Shown: piece after piece, positions 1,440 to 19,812 of the stretch
Position numbering within the stretch: position 1 is the first letter of the stretch
Layout of the letters: the number at the start of each line of letters is the position of its first letter
IMG/VR virus record: IMGVR_UViG_3300033155_000463
Span: 1 to 23,686 of that record
Strand: one strand, 5' to 3'
Length of the DNA: 23,686 bases
From: a virus
Notes under the pieces: model-generated
The model's database searches: none
What the model was told of the DNA's origin: nothing
Seen by the model: only the letters and a program-made list of their open reading frames with translations
Translations under genes and position numbers: made by a program

Positions 1440-3385
1440 GTAGTTTTAAGAGGAAGTTTACTAATATCTATGAGAGAAAGCTTTGGGGAAACCTTCTAAG
1501 TATACTAAGACCAGCAGTACGCATGAGTACTATAGAGTGGGCGCAAACCTTTAGAGTACTTACTAAAGAGGAGAGCCATCATGCAGGTAGGTTTGATTGT
1601 AGTAAGATTCCTGCCCTAGAGTATGTCTATACTTGTTGCGATAATAGGATGATTTACATTATAAGTGCTATGAAGGGTTCGCAAATAGGCTGGTCAGAGT
1701 TAACTAACAATGTAATTGGTAGAACTATACATACTAATCCCCAAAAGATACAGTGGGCATTTCCAGGGTTAGAGCCTAGTAAAGTATATAGTAGAGAGAA
1801 ACTAAAACCTTTCTTTACAGGTACTAAAGTATTAAGAGAATTAATTAACATAGGTGTGGCGAAAGAAAGCTTTAGTTTCTTTAAGTTCACAGGTGGCTTT
1901 CTAAAGCTAACTACATTAGGAGCTATATCATCTGCTAAGTCTTCTTCTATACCTTTTATAGGTTGTGAAGAGCCTGATGACTTTGTGGATAACGTAAAGA
2001 ATCAAGGTAGTACGTTAGAGAACTTGAAAGGTAGGCAGAAGTCTTTCCCTATAGGGTTTAAGAAACTACTAATAGGAGGTACGCCAACTGATAAAGACTT
2101 TAGTAGAGTTGAGTCTTGTTATAAAGAGTCTAATAGGATGATCTTTAAAGCACAGTGCCACCATTGTCAAGCGTTGGTTGAGCTTAGTCTTGATTACTTA
2201 AAGTATGATGAGTATCAAGATAGGTTTTTACATGAGCTTTATGGAAAGGATAATCCAGAGAGTGCCTATTTTGAGTGTCCTACTTGTTTACAGTCTTGGA
2301 CGTTTGAGGAGAAGAACAAGAACATTAGGGCGGGTATGGAGTTTGGCTTTACAGACTTTTGTGGTAACAAGTCTAGGGGATGGCATGCTAGTAAACCAGA
2401 AGTAACAGAGAACTTTGGTTTCTTACTACCTGAATTACTCTCTACATTAAGTTCCTCTACATTTGTAACACTTGCCCAGAACAAGATTAAAGCAGAAAAG
2501 GAATTAGCTAAAGGTAATGAAGGGCTATTGAAGTCTTTTACAAATAACTCCTATGGGTTGCCTTATGCTTCTGGTATTTCTTCTTTAGAACCTAATGAAC
2601 TTAAATTATTACGCAGTAACTATGAAGAAGGGATTGTTCCTATAGATGGACTTGTGCTAACTGCTGGTATAGATGTGCAAGATAATAGGTTTGCTTATGT
2701 AGTTAGGGCATGGGGGAGGAATAATAACTCTTGGTTAGTTAAGTGGGAAGAGATATTTGGGGATGTACTGAACCAAGATGATGCCATTTGGAAAGAGTTA
2801 ACTAATAGAGTAGTTACTGCTGAGTTTCCGCATGCTGGAGGAAAGGCACTAAAAGTAGCTGCTATATCTATAGATAGTGGGGATAATACAGAGTTAGTTT
2901 ACCGTTGGACTTTAGCAATGCAACAGCATAACCCTCAAATCTTTGCTACAAAAGGAGTTAAAGACTTACGTTGGAGTGAGAATGAGATATACCAAGAGCC
3001 TTCAGTCTTAGAGATTAATAGGGATGCCCAGACTAGAAAGACACTTGCAGAAACAATGGGACTAACTCTATTTAGACTTGCTTCTCATAAAGCACATGAC
3101 CAGATACTAAAGAGATTAGCTTTAAACTCTAATACAGATGCAAAGTCAAATATCTACTTCTTTAATCAACAGTCATATGGGCATTATGAAGAGCAGATGG
3201 TGTCATGTAGGAAGCTTGTAGATAGTGGAAGTGCCTATAGTAGGTCAACCTTTAAGTTGATTCCTGGGAAGCGTAAAGAAGCTATGGATGCTGAGAAGAA
3301 CGCCTTGCATGCTTCTTATGCTTTAGGAATTAGGAACTACACTCACGCAAACTGGCAAGCTATAGAAGAGTATTTACATAACTAG
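1436..3385 (+). CDS. Terminase large subunit (gpA family, ATPase-nuclease)
   Basis: This is the 649-residue motor of DNA packaging, close in length to lambda gpA (641). The ATPase half has a gpA-style deviant Walker A, KGSQIGWS (80-87), and a Walker B candidate at FIGCEEPDDF (174-183), where Glu178-Glu179 replaces the usual Asp-Glu. The GGTPTDKDFSRV segment (214-225) resembles the coupling region. A CHHC (241-244) plus CPTC (281-284) pair forms the zinc-knuckle insertion typical of this family. The C-terminal RNase H-fold nuclease begins at LTAGIDVQDNRF (408-419), with Asp413 and Asp480 (AISIDSGD) as probable metal ligands; NALHASYA (622-629) matches the final conserved helix. It acts at the prohead portal. 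The gpA family points to cos-type ends. No membrane or signal segments are seen. Confidence 0.95.
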   Translation: MSSFKRKFTNIYERKLWGNLLSILRPAVRMSTIEWAQTFRVLTKEESHHAGRFDCSKIPALEYVYTCCDNRMIYIISAMKGSQIGWSELTNNVIGRTIHTNPQKIQWAFPGLEPSKVYSREKLKPFFTGTKVLRELINIGVAKESFSFFKFTGGFLKLTTLGAISSAKSSSIPFIGCEEPDDFVDNVKNQGSTLENLKGRQKSFPIGFKKLLIGGTPTDKDFSRVESCYKESNRMIFKAQCHHCQALVELSLDYLKYDEYQDRFLHELYGKDNPESAYFECPTCLQSWTFEEKNKNIRAGMEFGFTDFCGNKSRGWHASKPEVTENFGFLLPELLSTLSSSTFVTLAQNKIKAEKELAKGNEGLLKSFTNNSYGLPYASGISSLEPNELKLLRSNYEEGIVPIDGLVLTAGIDVQDNRFAYVVRAWGRNNNSWLVKWEEIFGDVLNQDDAIWKELTNRVVTAEFPHAGGKALKVAAISIDSGDNTELVYRWTLAMQQHNPQIFATKGVKDLRWSENEIYQEPSVLEINRDAQTRKTLAETMGLTLFRLASHKAHDQILKRLALNSNTDAKSNIYFFNQQSYGHYEEQMVSCRKLVDSGSAYSRSTFKLIPGKRKEAMDAEKNALHASYALGIRNYTHANWQAIEEYLHN

Positions 3386-3458
3386 ACTTTTTTACCTTTA
3401 CTATTTAGTAAATATAGTGACCTTCTTCAGTATATGAGTAGTAAGACTTCTCTTAGTT

Positions 3459-3476
3459 TATTACATAGATGTGATA
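3459..3476. promoter_or_regulatory. Upstream operator candidate (imperfect palindrome O1)
   Basis: The 18-mer TATTACATAGATGTGATA matches the perfect palindrome at 3523-3540 at 16 of 18 positions and is itself a near-palindrome. It sits just upstream of the -35 region of the promoter ending at 3510. Its starts are 64 bp from those of the second copy, close to six helical turns, which would place both sites on the same DNA face. Confidence 0.6.
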
Positions 3477-3479
3477 ATG

Positions 3480-3510
3480 TTGGGGGTTTTTGTGCAGGGC
3501 ATGTTATAAT
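3480..3510 (+). promoter_or_regulatory. Extended -10 promoter for the winged-helix gene
   Basis: A perfect TATAAT (3505-3510) is preceded by TG at 3502-3503, giving an extended -10 (TGnTATAAT). The best -35 is weak, TTGGGG at 3480-3485 with a 19-bp spacer, as expected where an extended -10 compensates. Transcription would start near 3517, immediately before the second operator palindrome. Confidence 0.6.
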
Positions 3511-3521
3511 AAGTATGTAAG

Positions 3522-3541
3522 ATATTACATATATGTAATAT
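3522..3541. promoter_or_regulatory. Perfect 20-bp palindrome, operator candidate O2
   Basis: ATATTACATATATGTAATAT is fully self-complementary. It lies roughly at +5 to +24 of the predicted transcript and 23 bp before the start of the adjacent winged-helix gene. With its near-copy at 3459-3476 it brackets the promoter. The likely ligand is the protein encoded at 3565-3915 (inference from position). Confidence 0.65.
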
Positions 3542-3564
3542 TATCTTTAGGAAGTATACTGATT

Positions 3565-3915
3565 ATGAGAAAGGCTGTACTAAAAGAAGATTTGATTATG
3601 GTATTAAGTACCAAAGCTAAGAAAGTAAATTGTATTACTCCTTTAGAAGCTAAAGAGGTTTTATGCCTTACTAATGAATCTGCTTATGTATTATATTCTG
3701 CCTATAAAACATTCCCTTTTAAAGTGGCTAAAGAGATAACTGATACTGAAGTAGGTAAAGCCTTGGGATGGCAAACTGCAAAAGTACAAAGGAATAGGCT
3801 ACTCTTGGAGAAGAATAACCTATTTAGGCTCATTAGGTATGGTACTAAGTTTGATGGCGTTACGCGTGTTTATGTAGGTGTAGATGTTGTAGCTTTATGT
3901 CAGGCAGGGCAGTAA
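3565..3915 (+). CDS. Small winged-helix DNA-binding protein, putative autoregulator
   Basis: This 116-residue protein belongs to no named family I recognise. Residues 59-81 (TDTEVGKALGWQTAKVQRNRLLL) read as a helix-turn-helix. It is followed by a short basic helix and a beta hairpin (LFRLIRYGT, then GVTRVYVGVDVV, about 86-110) that looks like a wing. The start at ATG 3565 has AGGAAG upstream (3549-3554, 10-nt spacer); ATG 3598 (105 residues) is an alternative. A longer frame from TTG 3490 would have to translate the promoter and operator and is unlikely. It has its own extended -10 promoter flanked by two matching palindromes, so negative or looping autoregulation is the natural model. Finding a regulator between the terminase and portal genes is unusual. 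It may control the late genes that follow or a host promoter. Confidence 0.65.
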   Translation: MRKAVLKEDLIMVLSTKAKKVNCITPLEAKEVLCLTNESAYVLYSAYKTFPFKVAKEITDTEVGKALGWQTAKVQRNRLLLEKNNLFRLIRYGTKFDGVTRVYVGVDVVALCQAGQ

Positions 3916-4022
3916 AAGTCACCCCATTGACTTATTTTATTTTAAATGTAATAGTTGTAGCTATATACTTAACTAATAGATGGGCATTAGTAAGTATAGC
4001 TCTTGATATTGGTGAAGTCTAA
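3897..4022 (+). CDS. 41-residue micro membrane protein
   Basis: An ATG at 3897 opens a frame encoding MSGRAVKVTPLTYFILNVIV, then VAIYLTNRWALVSIALDIGEV. Residues 11-26 form a hydrophobic segment, followed by a Trp/Arg interface and a second partly hydrophobic stretch. It starts inside the last 19 bases of the winged-helix gene and has no Shine-Dalgarno of its own, so it would depend on coupling. Its TAA overlaps the AAGGAG of the next micro gene, a tight arrangement typical of real operons. The function is unknown; a holin-like or inner-membrane role is conceivable but unproven. Confidence 0.5.
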   Translation: MSGRAVKVTPLTYFILNVIVVAIYLTNRWALVSIALDIGEV

Positions 4023-4033
4023 GGAGTCCCCGA

Positions 4034-4201
4034 ATGGTTTATATTTTTAAAGAAACTATACAGTCTATAAATAACTTGTTTCTTAATATCCTATGTGCAA
4101 TAACTGGAGTTCTAGTTTTTTCACTTACACTTATAGTGATGATTCCTTACTCATTCTTTATGATAATTCTAACAGAGATATTTTATAAAAGGAAAAACTA
4201 G
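4034..4201 (+). CDS. 55-residue membrane protein
   Basis: AAGGAG (4021-4026) with a 7-nt spacer precedes this ATG. The product has an amphipathic N-terminus (MVYIFKETIQSINNLF), a hydrophobic stretch at about 17-37, a proline break (IPYS), a second hydrophobic stretch at about 40-50 and a basic tail, YKRKN. That fits one long or two short membrane helices with the tail in the cytoplasm. Its TAG is followed directly by the ATG of the gpW-like gene. A short membrane protein in the middle of head genes is odd. A holin-like, antiholin-like or host-modifying role is possible, but no family is recognised. Confidence 0.7.
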   Translation: MVYIFKETIQSINNLFLNILCAITGVLVFSLTLIVMIPYSFFMIILTEIFYKRKN

Positions 4202-5898: not shown

Positions 5899-5926
5899 TT
5901 GACAGTATTTAAAGAAGATGTATAAT
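5899..5926 (+). promoter_or_regulatory. Perfect-consensus sigma70 promoter before the protease gene
   Basis: TTGACA (5899-5904) and TATAAT (5921-5926) are both perfect matches, 16 bp apart, and lie in the portal-protease gap with transcription predicted to begin about 5933. A dyad, GTATAA-TC-TTATAC (5920-5933), overlaps the -10 and start region and could be an operator or chance in AT-rich DNA. It would drive the capsid genes independently of upstream transcription. Confidence 0.75.
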
Positions 5927-9078: not shown

Positions 9079-9116
9079 GAGAAACCTAGTAAGAGTTCTT
9101 ACTAGGTTTCTCTTTT
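9079..9116 (+). terminator. Rho-independent terminator/attenuator after the capsid gene
   Basis: GAGAAACCTAGTAAG (9079-9093) and CTTACTAGGTTTCTC (9098-9112) form a perfect 15-bp stem with loop AGTT, followed by TTTT (9113-9116). The next ATG is only 3 nt further on. The T tract is short, so partial termination is likelier than a full stop. The stem also contains the only AGG before the next start. Confidence 0.75.
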
Positions 9117-18579: not shown

Positions 18580-19812
18580 ATGGCATATCAAACAGGTTCA
18601 GTTGCAAATGGCGGTGCATTAAAAACTACATTAACTAGTTTTATGACTAGTAATGGGTATACTTTAGCTAATGGGTGGTATGGTAAAGGGAAGTCTTCTG
18701 TTAAATTTGCACATATGGCAGAAACAATATTTTATAAAATATTGTCTATATCTGGGAATAACGCACGACTATATTGGGGCAGTGGGTATACTTCGGACAT
18801 TTTAAATATTTCTATAGGAGATACTTTCAAGATACATTCTCCTGACATAAATTGGGATCAGAAAATTGGAACTGTATATAATATATCTCCGGTTTCACCA
18901 TATGCAACAAGTAACTGGTTAGACCTAAATTTTACTTCTGCAACTACATTATATGCAACTGCATATAATTCAGATGGTACTTACATTGAACGGATTTCTA
19001 CTGCTGGTATAGAAGAATCTTTAGTAGTATTATCTGAAGGAGACACTTTTTATGACCAGACTTTCAACATTTCTAAAAGGTGTCTAGTTTGGGTAGATGC
19101 GCAACATTGGCCTGTAACTTACCATATGTTTGCTTCTGATACCCAAATATCTTGCATAATACACTATGCAGGGGCTAAGATAATGCCACTATTTATAGGG
19201 GAGATAGTTAAAGTTGATGATAATGCTTTTGTAGGTGGCGAATGGGCATGGTGTAGTGCGCATATAGAGCGGCCTAGAGTATATTACCCAGGAGCTTCTC
19301 TATCTAAGGAATCTCGTGCATTTTTTACTCCAGTGTATGTTAGTTCAGTAATAGGAGCGACTATAAGTAGTACTGGTGTTCCTTTTGGAGGTTCTCAGTA
19401 CACTAATGTTACCACTTGGAATACTAGAATGCATTGCGAAATAGATGGAGAAACTTGGCTTGAAGGGACTGACCCTCTTAGAGGTTATTGTACTCCAGTA
19501 CAATATACTCACCAAACTCTAATAAGCGCATACGCAGGCTTTAACCCTTATACAGACCAAGCACAACTTGTTCCTATACATCTTCAAAATGGTATGGAGA
19601 ATAATTTAGAAGCCTACATAGGTTATTTAGACCATATAAGGATGATTAGAGTAGATCATTACAATATAGGGGATGTGATAACTATAGGAAGTGACAGTTG
19701 GATGATATTCCCTTGGTGTCTTAAAAATACAGAGCAGAGGAATGGTGCTACTTCCCCAGTCACTTATCACCATTCAGGGACTCTTGGATTTGCTATTAGG
19801 TATGTACTTTAA
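18580..19812 (+). CDS. Virion structural protein, probable tail component (second of two related)
   Basis: This 410-residue protein begins MAYQTGSVANGGALKTTLTS, like the start of the preceding gene's product. It ends with a comparable 'NIGDVITIGSDSWMIFPWCL' strand pair and LGFAIRYVL, so the two may be diverged paralogues. The middle is longer and beta-rich, with many aromatic residues (GWYGKGKSSVKFAHMAE, ARLYWGSGY). A tail-associated receptor-binding or structural role is the simplest reading. Only AAGG (18567-18570) precedes the start, which abuts the previous stop. A 22-bp perfect palindrome lies within it at 18724-18745. I recognise no catalytic residues. Confidence 0.55.
   Translation: MAYQTGSVANGGALKTTLTSFMTSNGYTLANGWYGKGKSSVKFAHMAETIFYKILSISGNNARLYWGSGYTSDILNISIGDTFKIHSPDINWDQKIGTVYNISPVSPYATSNWLDLNFTSATTLYATAYNSDGTYIERISTAGIEESLVVLSEGDTFYDQTFNISKRCLVWVDAQHWPVTYHMFASDTQISCIIHYAGAKIMPLFIGEIVKVDDNAFVGGEWAWCSAHIERPRVYYPGASLSKESRAFFTPVYVSSVIGATISSTGVPFGGSQYTNVTTWNTRMHCEIDGETWLEGTDPLRGYCTPVQYTHQTLISAYAGFNPYTDQAQLVPIHLQNGMENNLEAYIGYLDHIRMIRVDHYNIGDVITIGSDSWMIFPWCLKNTEQRNGATSPVTYHHSGTLGFAIRYVL
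18724..18745. repeat. 22-bp perfect palindrome in coding sequence
   Basis: Arms ACAATATTTTA and TAAAATATTGT are exactly complementary, with no spacer. It lies about 145 bp into the 410-residue structural gene. It may be an operator-like site, a hairpin or chance in AT-rich DNA. Confidence 0.6.

Follow-up and report, generated by a model that had tools for sequence, protein, structure and literature searches.

A moron-like insert with paired operator-like palindromes and a probable winged-helix gene at the terminase-head junction of an uncultivated phage

Overview

Between the large terminase (TerL) gene and an 88-aa gpW-like gene of the viral record IMGVR_UViG_3300033155_000463 lies a moron-like cargo insert (3386–4201, + strand) that is absent from the diverged relatives found. 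The window, which is the whole stretch of 23,686 bp that was analyzed, contains 816 bp of additional DNA comprising a promoter, palindromes, a 116-aa gene, and two small transmembrane (TM) ORFs. Two matching palindromes, O1 and O2, are located on both sides of an extended −10 sequence. The reading that we consider rather probable is that the insert brings its own promoter together with a small DNA-binding protein, probably of winged-helix type, which represses transcription of its own gene. The layout itself is best explained, at its simplest, by autoregulation, in which O2 would act with help from O1; the palindromes flank the promoter-like site and a coding-like ORF follows directly downstream.

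The paired palindromes

O1 (3459–3476, no strand assigned) is an imperfect palindrome, TATTACATAGATGTGATA, and is the putative upstream operator at about −58 to −41. O2 (3522–3541, no strand assigned) is a perfect 20-bp palindrome, ATATTACATATATGTAATAT, and is the putative main operator at about +6 to +25. Direct reading of the O2 core (3523–3540) against O1 shows identity at 16 of 18 positions. Both the starts and the centres of the two cores are 64 bp apart, which corresponds to 6.1 turns at 10.5 bp per turn. The perfect palindrome, the 16/18 match, and the 64-bp spacing had all been claimed in the preliminary description, as had an extended −10 TGnTATAAT between the two sites, and re-reading of the sequence agrees with each of these, the −10 element being located at 3502–3510.

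An extra half-site, TATGTAA, is present at 3514–3520 (no strand assigned), 18 bp 5′ of the right O2 half-site, and may be due to chance; the stretch 3505–3522 is identical to the O2 core at 13 of 18 positions. The half-site TTACATA also occurs at 3374–3380 within the final TerL codons. The window has 12 full half-sites in total, five of which are inside 3374–3538.

The O1/O2 motif was not found elsewhere in the 23,686-bp window, and the pair was not found in other contigs of the phage group. In IMG/VR, the paired pattern was found elsewhere only in a near-identical sister contig, with three differences in 9,382 bp and none at the palindromes. The search for the motif beyond the locus, proposed earlier as a check, therefore leaves the pair confined to one intergenic region, and for this reason a local autoregulatory circuit is favoured over a regulon. 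A single-site search with TATTACATANATGTAATA matched 26 other contigs, mostly within genes, and none of these 26 has an O1-quality pair or a gene related to the 116-aa ORF. One of them, L092, has a weak second match at 14 of 18 positions.

Promoter and transcript start

The extended −10 element, TGTTATAAT (3502–3510, + strand), is a match to consensus sequence only, and its −10 hexamer occupies 3505–3510, from which transcription would be expected to start near 3517. No good −35 hexamer is present at 15–19 bp spacing (GGGGGT is found at a spacer of 17), and taking TTGGGG as the −35 would require a spacer of 19–20 bp. Counting both strands, the window contains three copies of TGnTATAAT, so the −10 alone is unremarkable window-wide. 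The gap holds no good −10 other than TGTTATAAT, and the predicted initial transcribed region overlaps O2. With regard to a promoter of its own, as expected of a moron, the insert thus has the extended −10 consensus and lacks a −35.

Two further regulatory-like sequences were observed in the head region. A perfect consensus promoter, TTGACA-N16-TATAAT, is located at 5899–5926 in a 60-bp gap between the portal gene and the next head gene, and the corresponding gap of three relatives (L005, L012, and L014) contains TTGACA- or TTGACT-like boxes, so that a promoter within the head genes may be conserved at this position. In the gap between the major head protein gene and its downstream neighbour (9079–9116), a perfect 16-bp inverted repeat encloses a 2-nt loop and is followed by TTTT; it is likely a terminator that was overlooked by the consensus scan.

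The insert and its junction

The GC content of the insert is 31%, compared with 37–38% in the flanking genes. Downstream of the 116-aa ORF, the ORF scan gives a 41-aa hydrophobic ORF (3897–4022, + strand), which overlaps the 3′ end of the regulator ORF, has a coding-frame score of 0.164, and has no family match. It is followed by a 55-aa hydrophobic ORF (4034–4201, + strand), also from the ORF scan, with a good RBS (AAGGAGT) and a weak coding-frame score of 0.044, which abuts the gpW-like gene. The gpW-like gene and then the portal gene follow on the 3′ side.

Relatives were gathered via the large terminase, giving 36 loci at 44–72% identity, of which 35 belong to other contigs. The spacing between TerL and the gpW-like gene is 10–40 bp in most relatives, and other inserts occupy the junction at six loci. 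Among these, L006, L007, L013, and L014 contain only small hydrophobic ORFs of about 30–36 residues (small TM peptides), L037 contains an HNH endonuclease, and L035 (2627–3347) contains a TM protein and an endolysin, a lysis-like cargo within a packaging/head junction. A different HNH endonuclease gene, distinct from that of L037, is present in the window at 97–489 on the minus strand, beside the terminase genes. The 116-aa gene is absent from all diverged relatives found. Because the junction varies among relatives in this way, it is a slot for variable cargo, occupied here by the regulator-like gene. The earlier view that a regulator is not expected between terminase and portal loses force accordingly in this phage group.

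As in morons, the gene is present here and the same operon position is without it in diverged relatives. No terminator-like site was found on the + strand of 3386–4201, and the insert is called moron-like rather than a moron outright because it lacks a terminator of its own. An integrase (PF00589) was detected in none of the 23 related records, all of which are fragments, and the TerL alignment search of genome contigs found no prophage or host.

The 116-aa protein

The 116-aa ORF (3565–3915, + strand) encodes a probable (winged) helix-turn-helix (HTH) regulator, as suggested by its coding-frame score, a shared motif, and a match to phrog_21584. Its codon usage is that of the phage itself, at 0.198 per codon in-frame with negative values in the other frames; for comparison, terS and the gpW-like gene score 0.237 and 0.203, respectively. 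By inspection, residues 59–83 are HTH-like and residues 84–110 are wing-like. The segment EVGKALGWQTAKV fits the motif [DE][VI]GxxLGWxxxKV, which is present in several HTH proteins that are real IMG/VR ORFs. In several of the motif-bearing ORFs an HTH profile lies at or near the motif, and is significant only for HTH_31 in L057, the rest being below the cut-off. A degenerate DNA pattern for the HTH matched HTH-containing but non-homologous proteins, together with chance matches in short frames.

Profile searches gave a match to phrog_21584 (E = 0.001), whose function is unassigned, no Pfam match up to E = 10, and no credible NCBIfam match, so that neither Pfam nor NCBIfam places the protein in an HTH family. 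The only homologue in IMG/VR is that of the sister contig, and no credible homologues were found in phages, plasmids, 84,980 species genomes, or the related records. A PDB sequence search gave no match. Two AlphaFold models built on the single sequence are of low confidence and mostly strands, with mean pLDDT of 52 and 59. Of the earlier proposal of a small DNA-binding winged-helix product, the coding ORF with a plausible HTH segment is retained, and the fold is left with poor structure models and no Pfam match; the protein is probably winged-helix, judging from its residues. The gene looks like ordinary self-regulating cargo that is unusual mainly in lacking protein relatives.

Proposed circuit

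A dimer of the 116-aa protein would occupy O2, immediately 3′ of the transcription start, and thereby block initiation or promoter escape. Binding at O1, which lies 64 bp further upstream and faces the same side of the helix, would strengthen repression via dimer-dimer contact, bending, or wrapping. Because the insert has no terminator, transcription from the promoter would also cover the two small ORFs for membrane peptides and continue into the head genes. We infer the fold, the dimerisation, the binding, the sign of regulation, any loop, and the read-through. Without a DNA-bending protein, a DNA loop of only 64 bp would be very tight, and looping over this distance, which had been suggested earlier, would require bending or wrapping. 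The self-contained circuit of the preliminary description holds as far as paired sites, a promoter-like site, and an HTH-like ORF occur together, but its winged-helix fold finds no profile or model support. Against autoregulation stand the lack of homologues outside the sister contig, the low-confidence models, and the missing −35; moreover, another regulator could be the one that uses the sites. It is a long shot that the protein represents a novel family of phage winged-helix regulators in which two in-phase operators, spaced by 64 bp, support a very small repression complex on its own promoter, with read-through that tunes the head genes.

Alternative explanations

Fortuitous AT-rich palindromes around a constitutive cargo promoter are very improbable, as estimated with shuffles that preserve dinucleotides. 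When the whole window was shuffled, 17 of 300 versions (about 6%) contained a perfect palindrome of 20 bp or longer, so the location of O2 matters; in shuffles of the 179-bp intergenic region, such a palindrome arose in 10 of 20,000. A perfect 22-bp AT-rich palindrome of unrelated sequence, located at 18724–18745 inside a tail-region gene, likewise agrees with a chance origin. However, given O2, a second site matching at 16 or more of 18 positions appeared in the same gap in only 3 of 50,000 shuffles of the remaining sequence (near 6e-5). Set against the whole-window frequency for a palindrome, this makes the O1/O2 pair the strong part of the observation, which a lone palindrome or a lone −10 would not be. 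It is equally hard to credit that O2 is not an operator but forms a hairpin in the 5′ leader RNA that influences translation or stability. As RNA it is predicted to fold into a 9-bp stem with a 4-nt loop, but the stability of the leader is ordinary (z = −1.3), Rfam gives no match, and O1, which is upstream of the promoter, shares this sequence, most of the loop included.

Two rivals matter most: the sites may be bound by another regulator, or O1 may serve activation. Many host repressors typically recognise AT-rich dyads, and O1 and O2 are AT-rich dyads of this kind. A different host- or phage-encoded regulator might thus bind both sites and silence or time the insert, with the 116-aa protein acting elsewhere; the window is a fragment, and the remaining regulators of the phage are unseen. 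We regard this as improbable while keeping it in serious consideration, since an HTH-like gene lies directly downstream of the sites and the motif is absent at other promoters of the window, such as the consensus promoter at 5899. From a position just upstream of the −35 region an activator can contact RNA polymerase, and O1 lies just upstream of the expected −35 place. The 116-aa protein could accordingly be an activator, or activate at O1 and repress at O2, with binding centred near −49 helping a promoter that has no good −35. This appears unlikely, as the better site, O2, is downstream of the start, which is typical for repression, and extended −10 promoters can function without a −35.

Comparison with known systems

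Mnt and Arc are ribbon-helix-helix proteins that control an antirepressor. In P22-like phages their genes belong to the ant moron (immunity I region), in which repressor genes are inside the virion operon and vary among relatives (PMC2629481). Similar to the ant moron, the insert places a regulator gene within a virion-gene operon, where relatives have either nothing or other cargo, and transcription of the downstream structural genes may be affected. In contrast, the ant moron sits before the tailspike gene, and no antirepressor, antisense RNA, or sequence relation to it was recognised in the insert. The ant moron is a close parallel in layout, and the variable slot matches the published description of morons.

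BlaI, MecI, and CopY are small winged-helix repressors. Their operator core is TACA-N2-TGTA (PMC7253601). The sites described here are also TACA...TGTA dyads, which in that family are often present as two per promoter, whereas the core of O2 is TACA-N4-TGTA. Membership in the family was rejected on account of the 4-bp spacer instead of 2 bp, and the penicillinase-repressor Pfam profile was unmatched (E up to 10). Two in-phase operators around a promoter are likewise a feature of the Lac, Gal, AraC, and Fur/arsR loops, the comparison for two-operator repression being Fur at H. pylori arsR (PMC5007355). The 64-bp distance is shorter than in typical loops and would need bending help or wrapping.

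Significance

The insert is ordinary in kind and carries an orphan protein; the observation is confirmed and its interpretation is partly supported. It would represent a compact autoregulator-like module added to the packaging/head cargo slot of an uncultivated phage group. If true, it would provide a simple, testable case of a regulator within a virion operon and a function for a protein without known relatives.
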